This document shows positions 48,139 to 63,677 of a DNA stretch of 64,000 bases, piece after piece; the stretch's first letter is position 1; every line of letters begins with the position of its first letter. The notes below the pieces were generated by a model, which was not told where the DNA came from, made no database searches, and saw nothing but the letters and a program-made list of their open reading frames with translations. This DNA is from Geminicoccaceae bacterium (GTDB lineage Bacteria; Pseudomonadota; Alphaproteobacteria; Geminicoccales; Geminicoccaceae). The position numbers and the translations under genes are program-made. The stretch lies in the NCBI GenBank assembly GCA_020445645.1, contig JAGRGG010000019.1:1-64000 (forward strand). Direction: 5' to 3'.

Positions 48139-49809
48139 TCAGTCGCCCAGGATCGTCGGCAGGCGCAGGCCCTTCTCGCGGGCGCAGGCGACGGCGTCCT
48201 CGTAGCCCGCGTCGGCGTGGCGCCAGACGCCGGACGCCGGGTCGTTCCACAGGACCCGCGCCAGACGCCGCGCCGCGGCCTCGGTGCCGTCGGCGACGAC
48301 GACCATGCCCGCGTGCTGGGAAAAGCCCATGCCGACGCCGCCGCCGTGGTGGAGGGAGACCCAGGTGGCGCCGGAGGCCGTGTTGACGAGCGCGTTGAGC
48401 AGCGGCCAGTCGGAGACGGCGTCGGAGCCGTCCCGCATCGCCTCGGTCTCGCGGTTGGGCGACGCGACGGAGCCTGAGTCCAGGTGGTCGCGGCCGATGA
48501 CGACGGGGGCCTTGAGTTCGCCCGACGCCACCATCGCGTTGAAGGCGAGGCCGAGGCGGTGGCGGTCGCCCAACCCCACCCAGCAGATGCGGGCGGGCAG
48601 GCCCTGGAAGCTGATGCGTTCGCGCGCCATGTCGAGCCAGTTGTGCAGGTGCGCGTCGTCGGGCATCAGCTCCTTGACCTTGGCGTCCGTCTTATAGATG
48701 TCCTCCGGGTCGCCGGACAGGGCGCACCAGCGGAACGGGCCGATGCCGCGGCAGAACAGGGGGCGGATGTAGGCGGGGACGAAGCCGGGGAAGGCGAAGG
48801 CGTTCTCCAGGCCCTCTTCCTTGGCGACCTGCCGGATGTTGTTGCCGTAGTCGAGGGTGGGCACGCCCCGGTTCCAGAACGCGACCATCGCCTCGACGTG
48901 GACCTTCATGCTGGCGCGCGCGGCCTTCTCCACCGCCTTCGGGTCGCTCTCGCGCTTGGCCCGCCATTCGCCGACGCTCCAGCCCCGCGGCAGGTAGCCG
49001 TTGATCGGGTCGTGGGCGCTGGTCTGGTCGGTGACCATGTCGGGGCGCACGCCGCGCCGGACGAGTTCGGGGTACACGTCGGCGGCGTTGCCGAGGAGCG
49101 CCACCGACTTCGCCTCGCCGGCCTTCGTCCAGCGGTCGATGATCGCCAGCGCCTCGTCGAGGCCCTCGGCGCGCTCGTCGACGTAGCGGGTGCGGAGGCG
49201 AAAGTCGATCCGGTCGGAATCGCACTCGACGGCGAGGCAGCAGGCCCCCGCCATCACGGCGGCGAGCGGCTGGGCGCCGCCCATGCCGCCCAGGCCCGCC
49301 GTGAGGATCCAGCGGCCCTTGAGGTCGCCGCCGTAGTGCTGGCGCCCGGCCTCGACGAAGGTCTCGTAGGTGCCCTGCACGATGCCTTGGGAGCCGATGT
49401 AGATCCAGGAGCCGGCCGTCATCTGGCCGTACATCATCAGGCCCTTGCGGTCCAACTCGTGGAAGTGGTCCCAGGTGGCCCAGTGCGGCACCAGGTTCGA
49501 GTTGGCGATCAGGACGCGCGGCGCGTCGCTGTGGGTCCGCACCACGGCGACCGGGCGGCCGGACTGCACCACCAGCGTCTCGTCATCCTCCAGGCCCTTC
49601 AGGGCGGCGACGATGCGGTCGAAGTCGCCCCAGCTGCGCGCGGCCCGGCCGATGCCGCCGTAGACGACGAGCTCGTGCGGGCTCTCGGCCACGTCGGGGT
49701 GCAGGTTGTTCATGAGCATCCGCAAGGGGGCCTCGGTGAGCCAGGACTTGGCGTTCAGCTCGGTGCCGGTGGGCGGGTAAACGTCGCGGGCGTTCTTGCG
49801 GTCGAGCAT
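48139..49809 (-). CDS. hutU: Urocanate hydratase
   Basis: 556 residues. It is a NAD-dependent enzyme that hydrates urocanate to 4-imidazolone-5-propionate, the second step of histidine breakdown. The segment [15 protein letters not shown] holds the NAD site and [27 protein letters not shown] the catalytic-region Cys. The length is as in other bacterial HutU (555-560). The ATG at 49809 follows AAGGAACC. It is the last gene of the operon, separated from its hut partners by the acyl-CoA dehydrogenase and CoA-transferase genes. Confidence 0.97.
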
Positions 49810-49819
49810 CGGGGTTCCT

Positions 49820-50965
49820 TCAGGCGAAGAGGTGGGCGGCGACGATGTTGCGCTGGATCTCGGAGGAGCCCTCGTAGATGCGCATGATGCGGGCGTCGCG
49901 GACGAGGCGTTCGAGGGCGAAATCACGGGTGTAGCCGTAGCCGCCGTGGATCTGGAGCGCCTTGTCGGTCACGCGCCCGGCCATCTCGGAGGCGGCGAGC
50001 TTGGCGAGCGCCGCCGCCTCGCCGAAGCGCCCGCCGAGGTCGCGCCGGCGGGCGGCCTCGAGCGCCAGCAGGCGGGCGGCCTCGAAATCGAGCGCCATGT
50101 CGGCCAGCATCCAGCGGATGCCCTGCCGCGCCGCCAGCGGCTCGCCGCCGATCGTCCGGTCCCTGGCGTAGGCGACCGCGAGGCGGAGCGCCGCGCCCGC
50201 GAGGCCGAGGCACATGGCGGCGACCTCGACGCGGCCGTTGTCGAGCGTGCGCATCGCCGTCTTGAACCCCTGCCCCGCGACGCCGCCCAGGAGCGCGTCC
50301 GGGGGCAGGTCGCAGTCGAGGTCGAGCGTGACGACGTGCCCGCCGCGCAGGCCCATCGTCCGCTCCGGGCGACCGGCGACTAGCCCAGGCGTACCCTTCT
50401 CGACCAGGAAGGCGCCGATCCCGCGGTGGCCGGCGTCGGGATCGGTGACGGCGAAGACGACGAGCAGATCGGCCTCGCCGCCGTTCGAGATGAAGCACTT
50501 GGCACCCTTGAGACGCCACCCGCGCCCGGCGCGCCGGGCGCGGGTGCGCATGTCGGCGGGATCCGAGCCGGCGCCCGGCTCGGTCAGCGCGAAGGCGCCC
50601 AGGACCTCGCCCGTCGCGGCCTTCGGCAGCCAGTGGCCGCGCTGGTCGTCGGTGCCGCCGATCAGGATCGCGTCGGTGGCGAGGTAGTGCGCCGTCAGCG
50701 CCGAGACGGTCGAGCCGCAGCCGGACGCGACCAGTTCGACCGCGCGCAGGAGGCCCGGCGCCGAGATGCCGGGGCCGCCCCAGCGCTCGGGCAGGTTGGC
50801 GCCCATGAGGCCGAGTTCGGCCAGCCTGTCGAGCTGTGCCCTGGGAAACGTCGCGGTTTCGTCCGTGGCGGCGGCGGCGGGCGCCAGCTCCTCGGCGACG
50901 AAGCGCTCCAGGAGATCGGCGAAGGCGCGCTCCTCCGGGGATAGCATGTGGTACGGGTCGTTCAT
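49820..50965 (-). CDS. Acyl-CoA dehydrogenase family protein
   Basis: 381 residues of the FAD-dependent ACAD family. The signature [21 protein letters not shown] is present, as are the C-terminal Gly-rich region [37 protein letters not shown] and the helix bundle. The catalytic base is probably the Glu of RIYEGSSE. The start overlaps the stop of the CoA-transferase gene (ATGA), and hutU begins ten bases after the stop, so it is expressed with the hut genes. It would oxidise an alpha,beta-saturated acyl-CoA; substrate not predictable. Confidence 0.9.
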
Positions 50966-52122
50966 GTCACAGCCTTCCCACTGATCGCCCCCAGCACCGC
51001 GTCGGCGTCGGCGCCGAGGCGCGGCGCCGCGCGGTCGCTCTGCCACTTCTCGCCGTCGAAGCGCACCGGCTGGCCGACGACCGGCACGGGCCCGAGCGTG
51101 GGGTGCACGACCTCGCCGACGAGGCCGCGCGCCTGGGTCTGCGGGCTGTGAACGGCCTCGGCGACGCTTCGGATCGGGGCGCAGGGGATGTGCGCGGCGC
51201 TCAGGGCCGCGACGAGGTCCCCGGTGGCGCGCGTCCCGGTCCAGGCCTCGATCATCCGACGCAGGGCGGGCTCGTTCAGGGTGCGCGCGGCGTCGGTGGC
51301 AAAGCGCGCGTCCGCCTCGATGCCGGCGGCGCCGATGAGGGCGGCGAAAGCGGCGAACTGGCGGTCGTTCAGCACCGCGACCGCGACCAGCCCGTCCGCT
51401 GCGCGGTAGCAGCCGAAAGGGGTGGAGAGCGGGTGGCGGTTGCCGACGCGGCGGGGCTCCTGGCCCGCGTAGAGGTACTGCGCGTGCGCCGTCGGCAGGA
51501 GCGCGAAGAGGGCGTCGTGCATCGCCACGTCGATCACCGCACCCTCCCCCGTCCGCGCCCGGCGCAGCAACGCCGCGAGGATCGCCCAGCTGGCGAACAG
51601 CCCGGCCACGAGGTCGCCGAAGGACTCGCCCACCTTGAGGGGCTGGCCGCCTTCCTCGCCCGTCACCGCCATCAGGCCGGACAGGGCCTGGACGACGAGG
51701 TCGTAGGCGGGCAGGCCGGTCCAGGGTCCCGTCTGGCCGAAGCCCGAGATCGAGGCGTAGACCGTGTCGGGGCGCCGCGAGCGCAGGTCGTCCGGCCCGA
51801 GGCCGAGCTTCGCCGCGACGCCGGGGCGGAAGTTCTCGACGGCCACGTCGCAGGTGGCGGCGACGTCCTGGGCGAGCTTCCGGCCGGCCTCCCGCTTCAG
51901 GTCGACGGCGATCGACTGCTTGCCCCGGTTCGTGAGCAGGAACAGGGCGCTCTCGCCGTCCCTGAACGGGCCGACGTGGCGGTAGTCGTCGCCCCCCGGC
52001 GGTTCGAGCTTGATCACCTCGGCGCCGAGGTCGGCCAGGAGCGCCGTGCAGTAGGGGCCGGCGAGGACGCGGGTCATGTCGAAGACCCGGATCCCTTCCA
52101 ACGGCCTGTTGCCCTCAGCCAC
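50962..52122 (-). CDS. CaiB/BaiF-family CoA-transferase (class III)
   Basis: 386 residues. The family start [46 protein letters not shown] includes the region around the active-site Asp. Downstream segments such as [19 protein letters not shown] are typical. These enzymes transfer CoA between carboxylates (for example carnitine/crotonobetaine) without ATP. The gene starts at a GTG overlapping hutG by eight bases, and the dehydrogenase follows with an overlap. The pair may make and oxidise a CoA ester of an imidazole acid (inference). Confidence 0.9.
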
Positions 52123-52915
52123 GCCGCATTCCCTCCACGGTTTCGGCCAATGCGTTCAGCACCCTGCCCAGCACCGGCCGCAGCCGGTCGGCCCGGTCGG
52201 CGCGCCAGCCCCAGGGCGGGGCCTCGTCCATGTAGGCCCGTTGCGCGACCTCCATCTGGAGGGCGTGGACCCTAGCCTCGGGGCGGCCGTAGTGCCGGGT
52301 GGTCCAGCCGCCCTTGAAGCGTCCGTTCAGCACGCCGTCGAACCCTTCAGCGGTGGCGCAGACCTTCGCGGCCGCGGCCTCGATTTCCGGCGCGCAGGCG
52401 GCGCCGTCGTTGGTGCCGACGTTGAGGACCGGCAGGGTACCCTCGAACAGGAACGGGATCACGGAGCGGATCGAGTGGCAGTCGTAGAGGAGCGCCACCC
52501 CGTGCCGTGCCCGGACGCGCGCGACCTGTTCCGCCAGCGCCGCGTGGTAGGGCGCGTGGTACGCCTCGCGCCGCGCGTCGATCTCGTCCGCCGATGGCTC
52601 CCGACCCGGCTCCCAGATCAGGCGGCCGTCGAAGTCGGTGACGGGGCAGAGGCCGGTCGTGTTCTGACCCGGGTAGAGCGAGGCGCCGGCCGGGTCGCGG
52701 TTGGCGTCGACCGCGTAGCGGTGGACGTTGGAGCGCACCACCGTGGCGCCAGGCAGGAGCCCCTCGTAGAGCCGGTCGATGTGCCAGTCGGTGTCGGCCA
52801 ATCCGCGGCCGTTGGCGTTCAGCCGCGCGGCAAGGTCGTCCGGCAGCCACGTGCCGCCGTGGGGCTGGCCGAGGATGACGGGGCCGTCGCCCTCGATGAC
52901 CTCGAACGGGTTCAT
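52115..52915 (-). CDS. hutG: N-formylglutamate deformylase
   Basis: 266 residues of the N-formylglutamate amidohydrolase family. It hydrolyses N-formylglutamate to glutamate and formate in the five-step histidine route. The family blocks [39 protein letters not shown] and [18 protein letters not shown] are present, with His, Asp and Glu as zinc-site candidates. It is translationally coupled to hutH (ATGA). Confidence 0.95.
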
Positions 52916-54450
52916 GCCCCGACCTCCGGCAACGCCACGTCGGCGGCGGCGGTGATTTCGGTGCCGGCGACCAGCCTGGATGCCGCCTCGATGTCGGGGG
53001 CGAGGATGCGGTCCTTGCCCAGCGTCGCCACGTCCCGGCGCAGCCGGGCGAGGACCCGCCCCAAGGGCGGGCTCGTTTGAAGCGGCGCCCGGAACTCGAC
53101 GCCCTGCGCGGCGCAGAGCAGTTCGACGCCCAGGATCCGGTCCAGGTTCTCGACCATCCGCCCGAGCCGCCGGGCGCCGTGGGCGGCCATCGAGACATGG
53201 TCCTCCTGGTTGGCGGAGGTGGGGGTGGAGTCGGTCACACACGGCGTCGCCAGGTGCTTGTTCTCGCTCATCAGGGCGGCGGTCGTCACCTCGGCGATCA
53301 TGAAGCCGGAGTTCAGGCCGGGGTCGGGGGTGAGGAACGGCGGCAGGTCGAAGCTGAGGCCGGGGTCGACCATGAGCGCCACCCGCCGCTGGGCGATGGC
53401 GCCGAGTTCGGCCGTGGCAAGCGCGATCATGTCGGCGGCGAAGCCCACGGGCTCGGCGTGGAAGTTGCCGCCGGAGACGATCATGTCGGCCCCTGTCAGG
53501 ACCAGCGGGTTGTCGGTCGCGGCGTTTGCCTCGATCACGAGCGTGGATGCCGCCTGACGCAGCACGTCCATCGCGGCGCCCGCCACCTGCGGCTGGCAGC
53601 GGATGCAGTAGGGGTCCTGGACGCGGGTGTCGCCGGTCCTGTGGCTCTCGCGGATGGCGCTGCCGTCGAGGAGTGCCCGCATTGCTTCCGCCGCCTCGAT
53701 CTGGCCCCGGTGGCCGCGCAGGGCGTGGATCTCCGGCTGCAGGGGCGCGGTCGAGCCCATGATGGCGTCGGTCGAGAGCGCCGAGACGACGAGCGAGGAC
53801 CGCGCCGCGCGCCACGCCTCGAACAGTCCTGCGAGCGCGAAGGCGGTCGAGAACTGGGTGCCGTTGATGAAGGCGAGCCCCTCCTTGGGGCCGAGCGGGA
53901 TCGGGGACAGCCCGGCCCTGGCCAGCGCCTCGGCGCCCGGCAGCACCTCGCCCCGGTAGTCCGCCTCGCCCTCGCCGATGACGACGGCGGTCATGTGGGC
54001 GAGCGGGGCGAGGTCGCCCGAAGCGCCGACCGAGCCCTGCGCCGGGACGACCGGGGTGACGCCCTGCGCCAGCATCGCCTGCAGCAGCTCGATCAGCGCC
54101 CAGCGCACGCCGGACGCCCCCCGCCCAAGCGACAGGAGCTTCAGCGCCATCATCAGCCGGGCGTGGCGGCGCGGGATCGCCCCGCCGACGCCGCAGCAGT
54201 GGCTGAGGATGAGGTTGCGCTGGAGGGTCGCCGTGTCCTTCCGGGCGATCTTGACGCTGGCGAGCTTGCCGAACCCTGTGTTGACCCCGTAGACCGGCGC
54301 GTCGCCGGCGGCGGCGGCGGCGATCCGGCGCGCCGCCTCCTCGACGGCGGGGCGGCAGGCGGGATCGAGCGCCACCGGGGTCTCGTTCCAGTAGATGTCC
54401 GCCAGTTGGTCCAGCGTGACCGAGCCGGGGGCGAGCGTGAGGGCGCTCAT
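52912..54450 (-). CDS. hutH: Histidine ammonia-lyase
   Basis: 512 residues. It deaminates L-histidine to trans-urocanate. The MIO cofactor precursor is Ala143-Ser144-Gly145 in [13 protein letters not shown]. The active-site tyrosine region [15 protein letters not shown] is present, and later [20 protein letters not shown]. The length matches the family (509-515). It is coupled to hutI and hutG by 4-base overlaps. This is the committed step of the pathway. Confidence 0.98.
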
Positions 54451-55673
54451 GGCGAGCCTCCGTAAATGCGGGCGTGGAGCGGGTTGAAGCCGATGCGGTA
54501 GGCGAGTTCGGCCGGGTGGTCGACGTCCCAGACGGCGAGGTCGGCGCGCCTCCCCGGGGCGACGACGCCGCATTCGGCGAGCCCGAGCGCGCGGGCGGCC
54601 TCGCGGGTGATCCCGGCCAGCGCCTCCTCCGGGGTCAGGCGGAAGAGCGTGCAGGCCATGTTCATGGCGAGCAGGAGCGAGGTCAGCGGCGAGGAGCCGG
54701 GGTTGGCGTCGGTCGCCACCGCCATTCCTACCCCGTGCCGGCGCAGAAGGTCGATGGGCGGGGCCCGCGTCTCGCGGAGCGTGTAGTACGCGCCGGGCAG
54801 GATCACGGCGACCGTACCGGCCCCGGCCATCGCCCGCACGCCGTCCTCGTCGAGGTATTCGAGGTGGTCGGCCGAAAGGGCGCCGTAGGCGGCGGCGAGC
54901 CTGGCGCCGCCGAGGTTCGAGAGCTGCTCGGCGTGGAGCTTCACCGGGAGGCCGAGTTCCCGCGCCGCGTCGAACACGCGCTCGATCTGGGCAGGGGAGA
55001 AGGCGATCCCTTCGCAGAAGCCGTCGACCGCGTCGACCAGCCCCTCGGCGTGGGCGGCGTGCAGGGTCGGGATGCAGACCTCGTCGATATAGGCGTCGGC
55101 GCGGCCCTTGAACTCGGGCGGCACGGCGTGGGCGCCGAGATAGGTGGTCCTCACCCGCACCGGGCGCACCCCGGCGATGCGGCGGGCGGCGCGGAGCATC
55201 CTGAGTTCGGTCTCCGTGTCGAGGCCGTAGCCCGACTTCACCTCGATGGTGGCGACCCCCTCGGCGATCAGCGCGTCGGCGCGGCGAAGCGCGTCCGCCA
55301 GGAGCGCGTCCTCGGAGGCGGCGCGGGTGGCGGCGACGGTCGAGACGATCCCGCCTCCGGCGCGGGCGATCTCCTCGTAGGTGGCGCCTTCGAGGCGCAT
55401 CTCGAACTCGCGCGCCCGGTTGCCGCCGGCGACGAGGTGCGTGTGGCAGTCGATCGGCGCCGGCGTGACCAGCCGTCCGCCCATGTCCCGCGCTTCCAGG
55501 CGCCCGAATTCGCCCGGCAGGTCGGCGCTTTGTCCGACCCAGGCGACGGCGCCGTTCCGGACTGCCAGGGCAGCGTCCCCGATCAGGCCGTAGGGCGCTT
55601 CGCCCGGGGCGAGCGTCGCCACCCGCGCGTTGTTCAAAAGGAAGTCCCCCTCGCTCACGGCGCCCCCGCACAT
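54447..55673 (-). CDS. hutI: Imidazolonepropionase
   Basis: 408 residues of the amidohydrolase superfamily. It hydrolyses 4-imidazolone-5-propionate to N-formimidoyl-L-glutamate. Metal-binding His residues are in [13 protein letters not shown], with further ones in [12 protein letters not shown] and [14 protein letters not shown], and the Asp in [11 protein letters not shown]. First gene of the minus-strand hut operon. The ATG at 55673 is adopted; a GTG five codons downstream has a better-spaced G-rich site, so the start may be there. Confidence 0.94.
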
Positions 55674-55736: not shown

Positions 55737-57110
55737 ATGAGCACGATCTACGCGAACCGCGCCCGGCTCCCGGACGGCTGGGTGCGGGGCCTGCGCCTGA
55801 CGGTCGAGGGCGGCACGATCGCGGCGCTGGCGACGGACGCCGTGCCCGAAGCGGGCGACGTTCGGGTCGACACGCTGCTGCCGGCCCTCGGCAACCTGCA
55901 CAGCCACGCCTTCCAGCGGGCGATGGCCGGGATGACCGAGGTGCGCGCCGAGGGGCGGGACAGCTTCTGGACGTGGCGGGACCTCATGTACCGCTTCCTC
56001 GACCGGCTCACGCCCGAGCAGACGGAGGCCATCGCGGCGCTGGCGTTCATGGAGATGCAGGAGGCGGGCTTCGCCGCCGTGGGCGAGTTCCACTACGTCC
56101 ACCACCGGCCGGGCGGCGCGCCCTACGCCGACCCGGCCGAGCTGTCGAAGCGGATCTTCGCCGCCGCCGCCGCGACCGGGATCGGCCTCACCCATTTGCC
56201 GGTGCTCTACACCTACGGCGCGGCGGGGCGGGCGCCGCTCGCGGGCGGGCAGCTGCGCTTCGGCAACGACGTGACCGGGTTCCAGAGTCTCGTGGCCGCC
56301 GTGCGTGACGGGATCGGGACGCTGCCCCCGGACGCCCGCGTCGGCATCGCCCCCCACTCGCTGCGCGCCACGGCGCCCGCCGACCTGAAGGAGGTTCTCG
56401 CGGCCCACGCCGCCGGGGGCGGCGGGCCGGTCCACGTCCACGCGGCCGAGCAGCCGAAGGAGGTGGCGGACGTCGAGGCGTGGCTGGGGTCCCGGCCCGT
56501 GCAATGGCTGCTCGACGAGGCCGGGGCGGGCGCGGGCTGGTGCCTGATCCACGCGACGCACATGACGGCGGCGGAAACCGTCGCCCTGGCGCGGTCGGGG
56601 GCGGTCGCCGGGCTCTGCCCGATCACCGAGGCCAACCTGGGCGACGGGCCGTTCAACGGGCCGGGCTACCTCGCCGCCGGCGGGGCGTTCGGCGTCGGGT
56701 CGGACTCGAACGTGCGCGTCTCGCTCGTCGAGGAACTGCGGACGCTGGAATATTCGCAGCGCCTGCGCGACCTCGCGCGCAACGTGCTCCGCGTCGGCGA
56801 AGGGTCGGTGGGGGCGGCGCTCTACCTCGGCGCCGCGCAGGGCGGGGCGCGGGCGCTCGGGCGGGATTCCGGTGCCATCGCGCAAGGGCGTCTCGCCGAC
56901 CTCGTGGCGATCGACGGTACCGCCCCCGCGCTTTGCGCCCTCGACGGCGACCGGCTCCTCGACGGGCTGGTCTTCGCTTCGGGCGACGGGGCGGTCACGG
57001 ACCTGTGGTCGGCGGGCCGCCACGCCGTGCAAGGCGGGCGCCACGCGGCCCGCAACCGGATCGTCAGGGACTACCGCGCGGCGATGGCCTCGCTGCTGGC
57101 GTCGCTGTGA
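55737..57110 (+). CDS. hutF: Formimidoylglutamate deiminase
   Basis: 457 residues of the amidohydrolase superfamily. It converts N-formimidoyl-L-glutamate to N-formyl-L-glutamate and ammonia, the fourth step of the five-step pathway. The metal site [12 protein letters not shown] (H-x-H), [19 protein letters not shown] and FGVGSDSN segments are all HutF-like. The ATG at 55737 follows AAAGGA, just downstream of the HutC-like operator. Its end overlaps the converging hutD end by 40 bases. Confidence 0.94.
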
Positions 57111-57658
57111 AGGGGGGCGAGGTCGAGCCATAGCGCCCGCGCGTCCGGCGCCAGCCGGACCCGCGCCGGCCCGTCCCCGCAAAGCGCCACGGAGCCGGGC
57201 GGGACGGGGGCGCCGCCCGTGGCCGTCACCGTGCCCCCGAGCACGTAGAGGCCGGCGGTTCCCCCTTCCGCCGGATCGAGGTCGGTCTCGGCCCTGCCCG
57301 CCAGTCGACTTACGTTCGCGGCGAAACATACGGGATCGAAGATGAGGTTCAGGTTGCGCACGGACCCGACCGATAGCCGCCCGACGACCTCCAGGGCGCC
57401 CGAGAAGGCCAGCGGCGTTTCGGGAAGGGCTTGCAGCGGCCCCGCCCGCGTCTCCAGGACCATGCCGGCGCCCGCGACCACCGTGAGGATGCGTTCCATC
57501 CCGGGAAACGGCGAGAACGGGCCGTCCCGGTCCACGTCGGCGAGGCTCAGCCGCCAGACCGTTGCCTCCCCACGGTCCAAACGAGCGATCTCGCGGGTGA
57601 CGCCGCCGCCGTTCTTCCAGGCGACGGGCGCGAGGCCGCCGGGCCGGATCAGGCGCAA
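57071..57658 (-). CDS. hutD: HutD family protein
   Basis: 195 residues of the cupin-like HutD family, often found in hut loci. The core [36 protein letters not shown] and [11 protein letters not shown] blocks are present. It has no proven enzyme activity; a role in tuning histidine use is proposed for Pseudomonas. The TTG at 57658 was chosen because no ATG or GTG occurs nearby and it overlaps the hisC stop by ten bases. Last gene of the second minus-strand operon. Confidence 0.85.
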
Positions 57659-58770
57659 TCGTGCCGGTCCGAGGCGGCGAGTGCGACGATCAGGCGGTCG
57701 TTCTCGCTGGGCGTGCCGATGGTGGCCCGCATGTAAGTGGTGAAGCCGGGCTCGCGCCACGCCTTGACGATGATCCCTTCCTTGAGGAGCGCCGCGACGA
57801 AGTCGGCGCTGTCGCCGCCGCAGTCGAAGAACAGGAAGTTCGTCTGCGACGGCGCCACGCGAAAGCCCAGGCCTTCCAGCCCGTCCCGGACGCGCGCGCG
57901 CTCGTCCTTGAGGCGCTTGACCGAAGCCCGCATCCACGCCTTGTCGTCGAGCGCCGCGACGGCTGCGACCTGCGCCGCCGCGTTCACGTTGAACGGGGTC
58001 TTCGCCGCCGCGACGACGCGGGCGGTCTCCGCGTCCGAGCAGACGGCGTAGCCCGCGCGCAGGCCCGCGAGGCCGTAGGCCTTGGAGAAGGTGCGCAGGA
58101 CGGCGTGGGGGATGCCGGAGGCGCGCAGCACCTCGATACCATCGGGGCCGCCCTCGTCGGCGTACTCGAAATAGGCCTCGTCGAGGACGAAGAGCGTCCG
58201 GGGCGGGGTCGCGGCGATCAGGCGGCGAAGGCCGTCCCGGTCGAGCGCGGGGCCGACCGGGTTCCAGGGCGACGAGAGGAAGACGACGGCGGGCACTTTT
58301 GCCAGCGCCGCTTCGAGGGCGTCGAGGTCGAAGCCGAAGGCGGGGGTCATCGGCACCTTGACGACGCGGGCACCGGCGGCGAGCGGCTCGATCTCGTGCA
58401 GGCCGAAGCTGGGCACGACGGTGAGCGCCGTGCGCCCCGGCGTGAGCGTGGCGCGCGCGATCGCGGCGATCATCTCCTCGGAACCGTTGCCGCAGACGAT
58501 GGTCTCGATCGGCGCGCCCGTGTCCCGCGCGATGGCTTCCCGCAGCAGGGTGCAGGCGGGGTCGGCGTAGCGCGCGGGCTCAAAAGCGGCGGAGGCGAGC
58601 GCTTCCAGGACCTTGGGCGAGCAGCCGTCAGGGTTCTCGTTGCTGGCGAGGCGCGCGATGTCCTGCCTGCCGCTCAGCCGGCGCGCGACCTCGACGTTCA
58701 TGCCGGCGTTGTAGGGCGGAAGCGCCGCGACGCTGGGGTTGAAGTCGGGCCGGTCGCGCAAAGGGGTCAC
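57649..58770 (-). CDS. hisC: HisC-type class I/II aminotransferase
   Basis: 373 residues of the PLP-dependent histidinol-phosphate aminotransferase family. The family blocks [41 protein letters not shown] and [15 protein letters not shown] are present. The Schiff-base Lys is in [18 protein letters not shown]. It normally makes histidinol phosphate, but here it lies in a catabolic operon with a Rieske system and hutD. It could instead transaminate histidine or an analogue. GTG start. The symbol reflects sequence family, not proven role. Confidence 0.85.
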
Positions 58771-58786
58771 TCCGAACGCTGGGAAG

Positions 58787-59923
58787 TCAGAGGTCGAGCA
58801 CGACCGGCCCCTTGGGCCGCGAGCAGCAGATCAGCACCTCGCCCTCGGCAGGCGGATCGAGGGGTTCCTCGAAGTATTCGACTTCGCCGGACAGGAGGCG
58901 CGTCTTGCAGGTCGAGCAGATCCCGGCGCGGCAGCTGAACTCCGGCGTCAGGCCTTGGCTTTCGGCGAAATCGAGCAGCGACGGCGCCTTGTCCGTCCAG
59001 GAGGCCTGGATGCCGGAGCGGCGGAATTCCACCGCCGCCGCGTCGGTTATTCCATCGGTCGAGACGGAAGGTGCTTCCGGCACTGCCGCCGCGGGCAGGA
59101 TGACGGGCGCCGCCGCGTCCTCCTCCAGCAGGCTTGCAGGACCGAAGAACTCGTACTTGATCCGCTCGCGCGCGATTCCGAGGCCGCGCAGGATGCCGAA
59201 GACGCCCTTCATGAAGGGCGTCGGGCCGCAGAGGTAGACGTCGTAGTCGTCGAGCGGCAGCAGGCTTTGCAGAAGCTCGCGGGTGACGAGGCCGGTGCCG
59301 CGGTGACGCTTGCGGGCGAGGTCGCGCTCGGTGGGCTGCCGATAGCAGAAATGGGCGTGGATGCCGGGGCGGGAGCGGGCGACCGCCTCGACCTCGTCGC
59401 CGAGCGCGTGCAGGTCGCCGTTGTCGCAGGCGTGGATGAAGTGCACCGTGCGGTCGGTCTCGGTCGCCAGCGCGTGCAGCATCGAGACGAGCGGCGTGAG
59501 TCCGACGCCGCCGGCGAGCAGCACCACGGGGCGCGGGCTGGTGCGGTCGAGGGTAAAGGCGCCGCGCGGGCCTTCCGCCAGGATCTCGTCGCCGATGGCG
59601 ACCCTGTCGTGGAAGTGGCCCGACCCCAGCCCGGCGCCGCCCGCGCGCTCGGGCGCCGGTTCGCGTTTCACCGTGATCCGGTAACGACCGGGGCGGAGGG
59701 GGGACGACGAGACGCTGTAGTTGCGAACGACGCCCCCCTCCGTCCCGTCGCCCGGCAGGCGGAAGACCAGGAACTGGCCGGGCTCGAAGTCGCGCCAGCC
59801 GCCCACGTCCACGGGTTCCAGGTGGAAGGAGGTGATGGTGGCGCTCTCCGCCACCCGGTCGACCACCTTGAGCCGGCGGAACCCGGCCGCGATCGCGCCC
59901 ACGGTCGCGGGATCATCGTTCAT
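58787..59923 (-). CDS. Oxygenase reductase, FAD and 2Fe-2S ferredoxin domains (VanB-like)
   Basis: 378 residues. The FAD domain has RNYSVSSSPL, and the NAD domain has LLAGGVGLTPLVSMLHAL followed by YLCGPTPFMKGV. The C-terminal plant-type 2Fe-2S domain has CRAGICSTCKTRLLSG and a fourth Cys in VLICCSRPKG. It passes electrons from NAD(P)H to the Rieske oxygenase encoded just upstream, with which it shares an ATGA overlap. Interdomain order is FNR-type then ferredoxin, as in class IB reductases. Confidence 0.92.
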   Translation of the reverse strand: MNDDPATVGAIAAGFRRLKVVDRVAESATITSFHLEPVDVGGWRDFEPGQFLVFRLPGDGTEGGVVRNYSVSSSPLRPGRYRITVKREPAPERAGGAGLGSGHFHDRVAIGDEILAEGPRGAFTLDRTSPRPVVLLAGGVGLTPLVSMLHALATETDRTVHFIHACDNGDLHALGDEVEAVARSRPGIHAHFCYRQPTERDLARKRHRGTGLVTRELLQSLLPLDDYDVYLCGPTPFMKGVFGILRGLGIARERIKYEFFGPASLLEEDAAAPVILPAAAVPEAPSVSTDGITDAAAVEFRRSGIQASWTDKAPSLLDFAESQGLTPEFSCRAGICSTCKTRLLSGEVEYFEEPLDPPAEGEVLICCSRPKGPVVLDL

Positions 59924-60960
59924 TCGGCGGCGATCGCGGGCGCCTCGGCCTCGGCCTCGATGAGCTTCGCAAGCCCGCGGCGGAAGCGCAGCGGCCCGAC
60001 GTCGATCTTGAGGTCGAGGTTGGGCGTCCTCTTGTTCGCCATGCCCTGGTGGACGGCCTCGAGTACGGCGCGGTCCTCCTCGAAGGCGCCGCGCACCGAG
60101 GACGCGAAGCGCCTCGACACCTCGGAGTCGTCGGGGGCGAAGTTGCGCATCTGGAACCAATAATATTTGGTATGGTTCTCGTCGACCGGGGTCATGAAGT
60201 TGTAGCTGTCCATCAAGAACACGTCGTCGTGCAAGGGCCTGTCCTCGCCCCCGGTGTTGGCGGGTACGAAGATCGCCTTGATGATGGCGTTTGAGGGGTA
60301 GTGAACCTCGTAGTGCTGCTTGCGGTCGGCGTTGCCATCGAACTTCAAGAAAGACTTGTAGAAGGGTGCCGGCTCGGAATCGACCATCCACCGCCAGACG
60401 GTGACGCCGTTCGGATGCACCGTGGTCTGGAGCGGCGTCTCCTCGCAGGCGGCGCTGGCGAACGAGGTCTGATGCACCCACGCGACGTGGGAGGGGTCGA
60501 GCAGGTTGTCGGTCATGTAGAGGTAGTTGCAGGCGATGGTCATCGACTCGCCGCGGTTGACCCCCCACGCCGGGTCGTCGAAGTGCTCGACCGCGAAGAT
60601 CAGGTTGGGGTCAGCCTTCTCCGCCTCGCCCATCCAGATCCACAGGAGGCCGTAGCGCTCTTCGAGCGGGTAGGCGCGCACGCGGGCGACGTGCGGGACG
60701 CGCTCGGCGCCGGGGACGCGGGTGCAGGCGCCGGCGCAGTTGAAGGTGAGGCCGTGGTAGCCGCACTCCACGTCGTCGCCCTTGATCCGCCCCATCGAGA
60801 GCGGCAGCTTGCGGTGCGGGCAGGCATCCTCCAATGCTGCGGCCTTGCCGGAGGTGGTGCGGTAGAGGACGACGTTCTCGCCCAGCACCCGGACCGGGAC
60901 CAAACCGTCCGTGACCTCGTGGTCCCACGCGGCGACGTACCAGGCGTTGCGCAGAAACAT
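59920..60960 (-). CDS. Rieske non-heme iron oxygenase (VanA-like)
   Basis: 346 residues. The Rieske cluster is Cys47-x-His49 and Cys66-x2-His69 (CPHRKL and CGYHGLTF). The mononuclear iron ligands are in DNLLDPSHVAWVH (two His), with an acidic ligand later. It belongs to the vanillate demethylase-type group, which oxidatively demethylates or hydroxylates aromatic and heteroaromatic substrates. Position next to the hut genes suggests an imidazole substrate (inference). The ATG follows AAAGGAG. Confidence 0.9.
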   Translation of the reverse strand: MFLRNAWYVAAWDHEVTDGLVPVRVLGENVVLYRTTSGKAAALEDACPHRKLPLSMGRIKGDDVECGYHGLTFNCAGACTRVPGAERVPHVARVRAYPLEERYGLLWIWMGEAEKADPNLIFAVEHFDDPAWGVNRGESMTIACNYLYMTDNLLDPSHVAWVHQTSFASAACEETPLQTTVHPNGVTVWRWMVDSEPAPFYKSFLKFDGNADRKQHYEVHYPSNAIIKAIFVPANTGGEDRPLHDDVFLMDSYNFMTPVDENHTKYYWFQMRNFAPDDSEVSRRFASSVRGAFEEDRAVLEAVHQGMANKRTPNLDLKIDVGPLRFRRGLAKLIEAEAEAPAIAAE

Positions 60961-61092: not shown

Positions 61093-62031
61093 ATGCCCCT
61101 CCCCCGCCTGCGCGCGCTGCAAGCCTTCGAGGCCGTCGGCAGGCTGGGCAGCATCACGGGTGCCGCGGGCGAACTGGGCGTCTCGCCGAGCGCCGTCACC
61201 CAGCAGGTTCGGGCGCTGGAGACGCTCTTGGGCACCCCGCTCCTGGAACGGCGCGGCAAGGGGCTCGAACTGAACGCCCAGGGCCGGGTCTACCACGCCG
61301 GGATCAGCCTGGGCTTCCGCCAGTTGGAAGCCGCGCAGGACGCGCTCGTTCGGGCTCAGGGCGGCGCGCTCCGGGTCAGTTGTCTGCCCTCGGTCGCCGC
61401 GAAATGGCTCTCCCCCCTGCTCTTCGACTGGCAGGCGCGGCACGCGGACGCGGTGGTCCATCTGGTCGGCACCGAGGTCGAGCCCCGGCTCGGCGAGGAA
61501 GGGGTGGACTTCCGGGTCTCCTACGGCAGGGCTGCGGGAGATTACCGGCACCGCACCGAACTCTTCACCGACTGGGTGGCGCCGGCCTGCGCGCCGGCCT
61601 TCCTCGAACGGCATCCGGTGGAGACGCCCGAAGCGATCCTGCGCCGGCCGCTGCTCCGGATCGACTGGAGCATCGGCGGCGAGAGGCAGCGCGACTGGGA
61701 CGACTGGGCGGTGGCGGTCGGGGCGTCCCCGCCGACCGGCGGCGCCCTCAGCTTCTCCCTGTCGAGCGCCGCGATCGACGCCGCCGCCGCCGGGCGGGGC
61801 TTCGTGCTGGCGCCGCTGGCGATGATGGCGGGCGAAATCGCGGCGGGGCGCCTCGTCGTGCCGCACGACGTCCGCCTCCCTTTGCCGGAGGCATACTTCG
61901 TCGCCTGGGGCCAAGCCGCGCTCGCCAAGCCCTTCGCCGCCGCATTCCGCGACTGGCTGATCGCCGCCGCCCGCCGCCAGGGCCGCCTGTCGCGCCCGAA
62001 GGGCAGGGACGGAGACCGCAAAGGCGGTTGA
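61093..62031 (+). CDS. LysR family transcriptional regulator
   Basis: 312 residues. The N-terminal winged helix is LPRLRALQAFEAVGRLGSITGAAGELGVSPSAVTQQVRALE, followed by a LysR substrate-binding domain (about 90-300). The start and helix pattern resemble the GcvA-like subgroup. It is divergent from the Rieske oxygenase operon and is followed by the ABC transporter gene set, so it probably regulates either or both. Effector unknown. Confidence 0.92.
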   Translation: MPLPRLRALQAFEAVGRLGSITGAAGELGVSPSAVTQQVRALETLLGTPLLERRGKGLELNAQGRVYHAGISLGFRQLEAAQDALVRAQGGALRVSCLPSVAAKWLSPLLFDWQARHADAVVHLVGTEVEPRLGEEGVDFRVSYGRAAGDYRHRTELFTDWVAPACAPAFLERHPVETPEAILRRPLLRIDWSIGGERQRDWDDWAVAVGASPPTGGALSFSLSSAAIDAAAAGRGFVLAPLAMMAGEIAAGRLVVPHDVRLPLPEAYFVAWGQAALAKPFAAAFRDWLIAAARRQGRLSRPKGRDGDRKGG

Positions 62032-62135: not shown

Positions 62136-62966
62136 ATGAAGAGACGCTCCGTCGTGCAGGCCCTCGTCGGCCTCGGCCTCGTGCTCGGCCTGCCGCTCGC
62201 CGCGCACGCCCAGGACGCGCTGGAGCGCGTCACGTCGGCGGGCGTCCTGAAGGTGGGCACGGAGACCGCCTTCGCGCCGTTCGACTTCATCGACGCCACC
62301 GGCGAGCACGCCGGGCTGAACGTCGACCTCTTCGGCGAGATCGGCAAGGAGATGGGCGTCGACATCGCGTGGGTGGAGCTGCCCTGGGACGGCGTGCTGC
62401 CGGCGCTCGAAGCCGGGCAGTTCGACATGGTCGGCGGGCCCGCCACCATCACCAAGGCCCGCGCGGAGCGCTACCGCTTCATGCCGCCCATCGCCGAGGC
62501 GACCGTGGCGCTGCTCAAGCGCGCGGACGACGACAGCATCCAAAAGCCCGAGGACATCGCCGGCAAGCTCGTCGGCGGCGGCAAATCCTCGGCGCAGCTC
62601 GCCCAGTTGAAGGCGTTCGGCGAGTCCCTGCCCGGCGGGGTCGAGGTGCGCGAGTACGTCGGCAACAACGAGGCCTACGCCGATCTGGCGGCGGGGCGCA
62701 TCGCGGCGGTCGGCAACTCGCTGCCGAACATCGCCTACGTCGCGAGCCAGCAGCCAGACGTGTTCGCGGTCGTCCAGCCGCCCTTCGGGACGAAGAGCTA
62801 CTTCGGCTACATCGGCACGAAGAAGCCGGAGGACCAGAAGCTGCTCGACGCCGTCGACGCCGCGATCCTGAAGATCAAGGCGGACGGGCGCTTGGCCGAG
62901 CTGCAGAAGAAGTGGTTCGGCACGGCGTTCGACACCCCCGATCACGTCACCGACCCGGCGCTCTGA
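62136..62966 (+). CDS. ABC transporter substrate-binding protein, amino acid type
   Basis: 276 residues with a signal peptide (about 1-25, ending AAHAQ). It is a family 3 solute-binding protein (SBP_bac_3). GVLKVGTETAFAPFDFIDATGEHAG is the family opening, and EAGQFDMVGGPATITKARAERY a mid-protein motif. The periplasmic receptor for the two permeases that follow. Its neighbours suggest histidine or a related compound as ligand. The ATG follows AAGGGGAAGGTAA. Confidence 0.9.
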   Translation: MKRRSVVQALVGLGLVLGLPLAAHAQDALERVTSAGVLKVGTETAFAPFDFIDATGEHAGLNVDLFGEIGKEMGVDIAWVELPWDGVLPALEAGQFDMVGGPATITKARAERYRFMPPIAEATVALLKRADDDSIQKPEDIAGKLVGGGKSSAQLAQLKAFGESLPGGVEVREYVGNNEAYADLAAGRIAAVGNSLPNIAYVASQQPDVFAVVQPPFGTKSYFGYIGTKKPEDQKLLDAVDAAILKIKADGRLAELQKKWFGTAFDTPDHVTDPAL

Positions 62967-63035: not shown

Positions 63036-63677
63036 ATGACGCCTCGGCTGTTCGAACTGATGCTCTGGGCCGCCGGCGCCACGGTCCTGATCAGCGCGGT
63101 CTCGATCCTGATCGGGCTCGCGATCGGCTTTCTGGTCTGCGCCGCCCGGGTGTCGCGCACGCGCTGGCTCTCGACCCCGGCGGCGGTCTTCGTGAGCTTC
63201 TTCCGGGGCGTGCCGCTCCTCGTGCAGCTGCTCCTGATCTACAACCTGCTGCCCGGCTTCGGGCTCTACGTCCCGAGCGTCGTCGCCGCGATCGCCGGGC
63301 TCTCGCTGTGCACGGCGGCCTATCAGGCCGAGAACCTGCGCGGCGGCTTCATGAGCGTGCCGAAGGGGCTCCTCGAAGCCGCCGACATGGTGGGGCTCTC
63401 GCCATGGCAGCAGATGCGGCGCATCCGGGCACCCATCGCGCTTCGGCTGACCTTGCCGGCCCTGATCAACGAGGCGATCCTGATCCTGAAAGCCTCCTCG
63501 CTCATCTCCGTCGTCGGCGTCGTCGAGCTGACGCGGATGGCGCAGAACCTCGCCGCCAGCACCTACCGCCCGCTCCTGTTCTACTCGGTGGCGGGCGGGC
63601 TCTATTTGGTCATCAACTGGCTGGTCGCGGGCGGCGGGTCGCTTGCCGAGCGGATGCTGAAGAAGGAGCGTGCCTGA
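63036..63677 (+). CDS. Amino acid ABC transporter permease
   Basis: 213 residues of the HisM/GlnP-type permease family. Five membrane segments are visible. The motif FFRGVPLLVQLLLIYNLLPGFG and the EAA loop (PKGLLEAADMVGLSPWQQMRRIRAPIALRLTLPAL) contact the ATPase. Starts 69 bases after the binding-protein gene. Its stop overlaps the next gene's start by one base (TGATG). Confidence 0.92.
   Translation: MTPRLFELMLWAAGATVLISAVSILIGLAIGFLVCAARVSRTRWLSTPAAVFVSFFRGVPLLVQLLLIYNLLPGFGLYVPSVVAAIAGLSLCTAAYQAENLRGGFMSVPKGLLEAADMVGLSPWQQMRRIRAPIALRLTLPALINEAILILKASSLISVVGVVELTRMAQNLAASTYRPLLFYSVAGGLYLVINWLVAGGGSLAERMLKKERA

Follow-up and report, generated by a model that had tools for sequence, protein, structure and literature searches.

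The window analysed here is a 64,000-nucleotide (nt) stretch at the start of contig JAGRGG010000019.1 from a Geminicoccaceae bacterium (GenBank assembly GCA_020445645.1). On the minus strand it carries genes for a Rieske oxygenase, a reductase, a HisC-like aminotransferase and HutD, which lie beside the hutFIHGU genes for histidine utilisation (Table 1). The Rieske and reductase genes overlap by 4 nt, a gap of 16 nt separates the reductase gene from the HisC-like gene, and the latter overlaps hutD by a few nucleotides. Because of this spacing, the four genes are read as one operon, in agreement with the initial annotation. A second permease gene begins at the 3' end of the one listed in Table 1 and extends beyond the window.

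Table 1. Features of the Rieske operon and the adjoining genes in the window.
Feature	Coordinates	Strand	Basis and remarks
Rieske non-haem iron oxygenase, VanA/DdmC type, 346 amino acids (aa)	59920-60960	-	Pfam, alignment, AlphaFold model
Cognate reductase, 378 aa; flavin adenine dinucleotide (FAD), nicotinamide adenine dinucleotide (NAD) and C-terminal plant-type [2Fe-2S] domains	58787-59923	-	Pfam
HisC-like pyridoxal 5'-phosphate (PLP) aminotransferase, catabolic clade, 373 aa	57649-58770	-	TIGR01141; clade and residue test
HutD bicupin, last gene of the operon	~57071-57658	-	PF05962, 1.3e-35; start codon uncertain (TTG or CTG)
Palindrome TTTAG-N5-CTAAA with one mismatch, TTTAGGAAAACTTAA	61055-61069		Proposed LysR operator, ~95 base pairs (bp) upstream of the Rieske start
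Divergent LysR regulator, proposed controller	61093-62031	+	Pfam
Family 3 substrate-binding protein (His/Lys/Arg/cystine type)	62136-62966	+	Profile match
Amino-acid ATP-binding cassette (ABC) permease, same transporter as the substrate-binding protein	63036-63677	+	Open reading frame; synteny
hutF, formimidoylglutamate deiminase; convergent with hutD	55737-57110	+	TIGR02022, 557 bits (cut-off 413)
hutI, imidazolonepropionase	54447-55673	-	TIGR01224
hutH, histidine ammonia-lyase; proposed acceptor of the demethylated product	52912-54450	-	TIGR01225
hutG, N-formylglutamate deformylase	52115-52915	-	TIGR02017
CoA-transferase family III (CaiB-like; CoA, coenzyme A), within the hut operon	50962-52122	-	PF02515, 1e-130
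Acyl-CoA dehydrogenase, paired with the CoA-transferase	49820-50965	-	Pfam
hutU, urocanase	48139-49809	-	TIGR01228, 958 bits

The Rieske protein matches the Pfam families Rieske (PF00355, 2e-20) and VanA_C (PF19112, 4e-47). The ligands of the [2Fe-2S] cluster (C47, H49, C66 and H69, in a CxH...CxxH arrangement), the 2-His-1-carboxylate iron site (H158, H163 and D296) and the bridging D155 are all present, and are invariant or nearly so in an alignment of 38 homologues. Comparison of an AlphaFold model of the protein (mean predicted local distance difference test score 86, predicted template modelling (TM) score 0.86) with solved structures in the Protein Data Bank (PDB) using Foldseek gave dicamba O-demethylase (DdmC; TM 0.85-0.88) and guaiacol O-demethylase (7qwt) as the best matches, followed by hydroxylases of the saxitoxin pathway and then by the caffeine N-demethylases NdmA and NdmB. 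The solved folds nearest to the model are those of demethylases. As judged by its sequence, domains and predicted fold, the enzyme is of the VanA/DdmC type, and oxidative demethylation is its predicted activity; formaldehyde-detoxification genes (FrmA and/or Gfa) in 14 of the 80 related loci described below provide indirect support.

At the iron, the group V betaine demethylases CntA and Stc2 have a bridging Glu together with a Cys-X-X-Cys pair, E205 and C206/C209 in CntA (PMC10952381). The corresponding stretch of the window protein is D155-P156-S-H158-V159, and D155, P156, H158 and V159 are invariant in the 38 aligned homologues. As the Glu-Cys-x-x-Cys signature is absent, assignment to group V, the quaternary-ammonium monooxygenases, was rejected, and a histidine betaine as the substrate, one of the compounds named in the initial annotation, loses its strongest analogy. 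The reductase comprises FAD_binding_6, NAD_binding_1 and Fer2 domains, and its closest NCBIfam models are GbcB/BenC-like but score below their cut-offs.

The HisC-like protein belongs to Aminotran_1_2 (3e-55) and scores 282.8 bits against the TIGR01141 hisC model, just over the cut-off of 276.6. The PLP-binding Lys (K230) and the C-terminal Arg (R348) are retained, and Lys replaces Arg at position 336. Lys occupies this position in 54 of 54 HisC-like proteins encoded by related cassettes, whereas Arg, one of the phosphate-binding residues of HisC, is found at the equivalent position in both other HisC-type proteins of the genome and in solved HisC chains. The cassette proteins form one clade with 100% support in the Shimodaira-Hasegawa-like approximate likelihood ratio test (SH-aLRT), apart from the HisC proteins encoded next to tyrC in those genomes. 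The canonical hisC of this genome adjoins tyrC on contig C3, and its product is 39% identical to the operon protein. A third HisC-type gene, separate from the hisC-tyrC copy, lies beside hisG, hisF, hisA and hisE on contig C282 (locus L125). A biosynthetic identity for the operon aminotransferase was rejected given its separate clade, Lys336 and the further hisC copies. The initial annotation had regarded a HisC-type enzyme in a catabolic operon as unexpected and had proposed a search for a second hisC; the enzyme belongs to a clade predicted to be catabolic, and hisC is not a single-copy gene in this genome.

The combination of genes is not confined to this genome. A scan of GTDB genomes using the Rieske protein alone recovered 80 loci encoding proteins of ~66-83% identity, mostly in Rhizobiales and Rhodobacterales but also in Comamonadaceae, Pseudomonas and a few metagenome bins. 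The general layout is a LysR gene divergent from genes for the Rieske enzyme, the reductase, the HisC-like protein, a GlcD-like FAD oxidase, an M14-like peptidase of the DUF2817 family (often fused to a HisP-type ATPase) and a HisJQM transporter. Counts of neighbours, which are lower bounds because contig ends cut some loci, were 65 for LysR (counted at 40% identity or more and nearly always beside the Rieske gene), 64 for the reductase, 53 for the HisC-like protein, 46 for the DUF2817 protein with a solute-binding protein, 45 for the GlcD-like oxidase, 17 for hutH and 16 for hutU. The reductase gene follows the Rieske gene in most loci. Since the Rieske-reductase-HisC combination recurs in dozens of genomes, its arrangement in the window is not due to chance.

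Annotated plasmids display the complete gene order. That of Shinella zoogloeoides has the LysR gene and, on its other side, genes for the Rieske enzyme, reductase, HisC, DUF2817 (with the HisP-type ATPase), a substrate-binding protein, two permeases, S-(hydroxymethyl)glutathione dehydrogenase, Gfa and the FAD oxidase. In locus L105 the formaldehyde genes adjoin the cassette on one strand. Mobilizable plasmids of the meat isolate Pseudomonas fragi NMC25 and of P. bubulae carry LysR, HisJ, HisQ, permease, ATPase, DUF2817, Rieske and reductase genes. The Rieske and reductase genes occur without those for HisC or the oxidase in Pseudomonas, in L087 and at other loci. No further Rieske protein at this level of similarity was found in the taxonomic order of the window, where the next relative is 57% identical (genome G026). 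In the Rieske tree the window protein falls into a loose grouping with sequences from Aureimonas and Rhizobiaceae, and the window copy was therefore probably acquired by transfer.

A blind search for dyads in 27 upstream regions, with no motif picked beforehand, revealed TTTAG-N5-CTAAA in 20 of them. The 80 loci contain 61 exact copies, as against none in Markov-simulated sequence (three simulations only), and nearly all copies are positioned ~95 bp before the Rieske start. Taken alone, the window palindrome could be fortuitous, as 1.3 sites with up to two mismatches are expected per 64 kb, yet its position is the conserved one. The same palindrome precedes separate reductase-HisC-oxidase operons in L075 and L109 and the transporter operon in L099 and L107. 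This shared site is independent evidence that the Rieske, reductase-HisC-oxidase and transporter genes act together, and it is the predicted operator to which the LysR protein would bind.

In the window, the hutF, hutI, hutH, hutG and hutU products each score above the respective equivalog cut-off, and HutD matches PF05962 with 123.6 bits against a threshold of 25; a complete canonical five-step pathway thus adjoins the Rieske operon. A hut catabolic gene is found within 10 kb of the Rieske gene in 18 of the 80 loci. Mapped on the Rieske tree, hut linkage requires 12 changes, 10 of which are forced by well-supported branches; hence the association has arisen or been retained repeatedly. In the metagenome bin L091, hutU, hutD and the Rieske gene are successive on one strand, echoing the pairing of HutD with the Rieske enzyme in the window, and hutU abuts the Rieske gene in two Rhodobacteraceae genomes. 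On the far side of the LysR gene, Mesorhizobium sp. AR02 has hutC together with genes for a hut-type transporter and for a CoA-transferase/acyl-CoA dehydrogenase pair. All 50 host genomes tested have hutU (48 above the curated cut-off), compared with a background of 34 of 142 genomes across the class and 23 of 32 in the taxonomic order of the window. Among Rhodobacteraceae genomes with a Rieske relative of at least 70% identity, hutU occurs in four of five.

The window pair of CaiB-like CoA-transferase and acyl-CoA dehydrogenase genes sits between hutG and hutU (49820-52122, minus strand). The same pair accompanies the Rieske cassette in L036, L044, L046, L078, L106 and L130, and the CoA-transferase was not found in 12 hut loci of the taxonomic order of the window. 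By analogy with the carnitine enzymes CaiA and CaiB operating in reverse, the two proteins could turn imidazolepropionate into urocanate via CoA esters.

The cassette transporters score as His/Arg-type or HisQ/HisP-like, and in eight loci relatives of the family 3 substrate-binding protein at 60% or more adjoin either hut genes or the Rieske cassette. The DUF2817 proteins retain the zinc and catalytic pattern of M14 peptidases (H67xxE70, H222 and E297) together with a DLNRN stretch that includes the Asn-Arg pair (DLNR) for the substrate carboxylate, and these positions are invariant. A weak Pfam match to aspartoacylases was obtained, and the fold remotely resembles those of carboxypeptidase A and aspartoacylases (TM ~0.45), a similarity used only alongside the motif evidence. 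In L105, L045, L054 and other Rhizobiales and Rhodobacterales loci, the DUF2817 domain is N-terminal to a HisP-type ABC ATPase, placing a peptidase inside a transporter subunit. The fusion therefore indicates a cytoplasmic enzyme that works on an imported conjugate. In Paracoccus methylovorus, which has a Rieske relative of 61% identity, DUF2817 is replaced by an enzyme of the AspA/AstE family together with a dipeptide-type (SBP_bac_5) transporter, and distant HisC and FAD-oxidase genes lie alongside; a comparable cluster occurs in P. seriniphilus, where hutU is located 9 kb from it. The peptidase and transporter data fit a conjugate in which methylhistidine is linked to a peptide or acyl group, e.g. 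anserine.

On balance, these findings favour, by a little, a LysR-controlled peripheral module of histidine catabolism that would import a ring N-methylhistidine, demethylate it at nitrogen and hand the resulting histidine to the Hut pathway. The amino-acid ABC transporter would take up tau- or pi-methylhistidine or, in relatives with DUF2817, possibly a conjugate such as the beta-alanyl compound anserine, to be cut inside the cell. Electrons from NADH would pass through the FAD and [2Fe-2S] centres of the reductase to the Rieske enzyme, which would hydroxylate the N-methyl group, and the hemiaminal would break down spontaneously to histidine and formaldehyde. The former would then be processed by HutH, HutU, HutI, HutF and HutG, and the latter removed by glutathione-dependent oxidation, for which this genome has FrmA on contig C71. 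HutD, a putative modulator of hut flux, would be co-transcribed with the operon.

The place of the aminotransferase in this scheme is suggested by its partner. Genes for the HisC-like protein and the GlcD-like oxidase occur together in 44 loci, as compared with nine with the former only and one with the latter only (Fisher p 2e-12, relatedness ignored). A 2-hydroxyacid oxidase and an aminotransferase suggest a sequence from lactate through pyruvate to amino acid, i.e. from (methyl)imidazole-lactate to (methyl)histidine. Plausible substrates of the HisC-like enzyme are histidine and imidazolepyruvate or methylated forms of either; with the oxidase, where present, it would interconvert (methyl)imidazole-lactate, -pyruvate and (methyl)histidine and thereby channel such side forms to histidine as well.

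Several observations weigh against demethylation of methylhistidine as the function of the operon. Of the 80 loci, 62 lack a hut gene at 10 kb or less from the Rieske gene. Lineage accounts for part of the universal presence of hutU, given the kinship of the host genomes, and Rhodobacteraceae show no enrichment of hutU (6 of 11 genomes with a Rieske relative at or above ~60%, against 103 of 199 overall); hence the distant relatives probably have other substrates, and the co-occurrence with hutU was not taken as proof of a link. In the window, DUF2817, the GlcD-like oxidase and formaldehyde genes do not adjoin the operon; the nearest homologues in this genome, an oxidase at 44% identity and an FrmA at 76% to the cassette-linked one, are both on contig C71. 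Finally, as HutH could act only after demethylation, it is not evident why an aminotransferase would be required.

Other explanations were considered for the same data. Rieske enzymes catalyse many types of reaction (PMC12445004), and the enzyme might instead hydroxylate or desaturate an unmethylated imidazole, such as imidazole-lactate, imidazolepropionate or a histamine-like compound, leaving HisC and the oxidase to process the product. The close pairing of these two proteins, which points to 2-hydroxy and 2-oxo acid forms of histidine, agrees with this proposal, but the formaldehyde-detoxification genes that accompany the cassette, the demethylase folds nearest to the model and the loci having Rieske and reductase genes without those for HisC or the oxidase do not, and it appears unlikely. 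A slimmer chance is given to another methylated derivative, N-methylimidazole-lactate or N-methylimidazoleacetate, for which the oxidase and HisC would form the main route. It would account for the HisC-oxidase pairing, the shared palindrome and the hut linkage, but amino-acid transporters and a peptidase better suit an amino acid or its conjugate, and several lineages lack both HisC and the oxidase.

A demethylase acting on the alpha-nitrogen of hercynine (histidine betaine) or of N-alpha-methylhistidines, comparable to the stachydrine and carnitine demethylases, would likewise yield histidine and formaldehyde, and certain Rieske relatives of 52-61% identity are encoded near sarcosine-oxidase genes. 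However, the replacement of the group V signature in all 38 homologues, the VanA_C domain and transporters of the HisJ type rather than the betaine type make such a substrate, including the betaine suggested initially, improbable, more so than either imidazole alternative above. The least probable of the alternatives is that the operon is unrelated to histidine and owes its position next to hut to coincidence or to a nitrogen-catabolic regulation that both share. The many loci without a nearby hut gene and the lack of hutU enrichment in Rhodobacteraceae would be expected in that case, but the repeated independent linkage, the hutU-hutD-Rieske order in L091, the HutD gene in the window operon, and hutC with a hut-type transporter beside the cassette elsewhere are not. 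Of the earlier proposal that a methylated imidazole is oxidised, the part in which a demethylase-type Rieske enzyme feeds the Hut pathway is thus well supported by the conserved linkage, by the shared palindrome and by the genes for formaldehyde detoxification and for transporters of the histidine type; the best guess as to the substrate would be ring N-methylhistidine.

Similarity of the window Rieske protein to DdmC and the vanillate and guaiacol O-demethylases (VanA family; PDB 3gke and 7qwt) extends to the fold (TM 0.84-0.88), the VanA_C domain, the Rieske and iron ligands and a separate reductase; however, identity is only ~30%, and the genes lie in a context of amino-acid and histidine catabolism rather than that of aromatic ethers. 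NdmA and NdmB with the reductase NdmD provide a parallel for the proposed Rieske N-demethylation of an N-methyl azole with release of formaldehyde, but are ~22% identical in the structure alignment and differ in substrate, operon and subfamily. CntA, Stc2 and GbcA resemble the proposed system in the oxidation of N-methyl compounds and in having GbcB-like reductases, but their catalytic domain belongs to another family and carries the signature missing here. The operon aminotransferase shares with HisC its PLP lysine, C-terminal Arg and TIGR01141 score, and differs in its clade, residue 336, catabolic operon and regulation. The known Hut system (HutH-HutU-HutI-HutF-HutG with HutC and HutD) is extended in the window by an upstream oxygenase/aminotransferase module, and we know of no described hut operon that includes one.

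Muscle and animal waste are rich in methylhistidines and anserine, which are used as markers of diet and of muscle turnover. To our knowledge, no enzymes that allow bacteria to consume them have been reported, and none were found in a full-text literature search. The searched open-access full texts gave no description of a Rieske/HisC-like/DUF2817 system, and in NCBIfam no equivalog covers the Rieske, reductase or DUF2817 protein. The enzymes are all from known families; as far as the literature search and our knowledge go, their combination as a pathway for histidine derivatives is undescribed. A wider proposal, put forward tentatively as possible rather than likely, is a mobile and widespread anserine/methylhistidine pathway in which conjugate import by a transporter with its ATPase fused to a peptidase, Rieske N-demethylation of the imidazole, salvage of imidazole-lactate by a HisC-derived aminotransferase and a 2-hydroxyacid oxidase, and feeding of imidazolepropionate to urocanate by the CoA-transferase and acyl-CoA dehydrogenase all lead into Hut.

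If the favoured reading of N-demethylation is correct, the bacterium strips methyl groups from a methylated histidine and uses the product as ordinary histidine. The operon would also show how a biosynthetic aminotransferase came to serve catabolism, and in many rhizobia, rhodobacters and pseudomonads the automatic annotations 'HisC' and 'ring-hydroxylating dioxygenase' would need to be corrected. The predicted demethylase, peptidase, transporter and regulator, present also on the mobilizable plasmids of meat-associated P. fragi, are directly testable.

More distant Rieske relatives are found in other settings. In L108 and L132, proteins of 52-61% identity are encoded near sarcosine-oxidase subunit genes and PhyH-type oxygenase genes, and in L108 also near a trimethylamine-methyltransferase-family gene; these relatives probably act on other N-methyl compounds. 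On a plasmid of Sulfitobacter pontiacus (L133), the gene for a 43% relative adjoins one annotated as 6-hydroxynicotinate reductase and molybdopterin hydroxylase genes, which suggests a possible N-methylnicotinate (trigonelline) demethylase. In three metagenome bins (L087 at 13992, L091 at 11108 and L094 at 11126), the palindrome also stands before a series of secreted-protein genes that lie downstream of the Rieske region; one of the encoded proteins resembles DUF1552.

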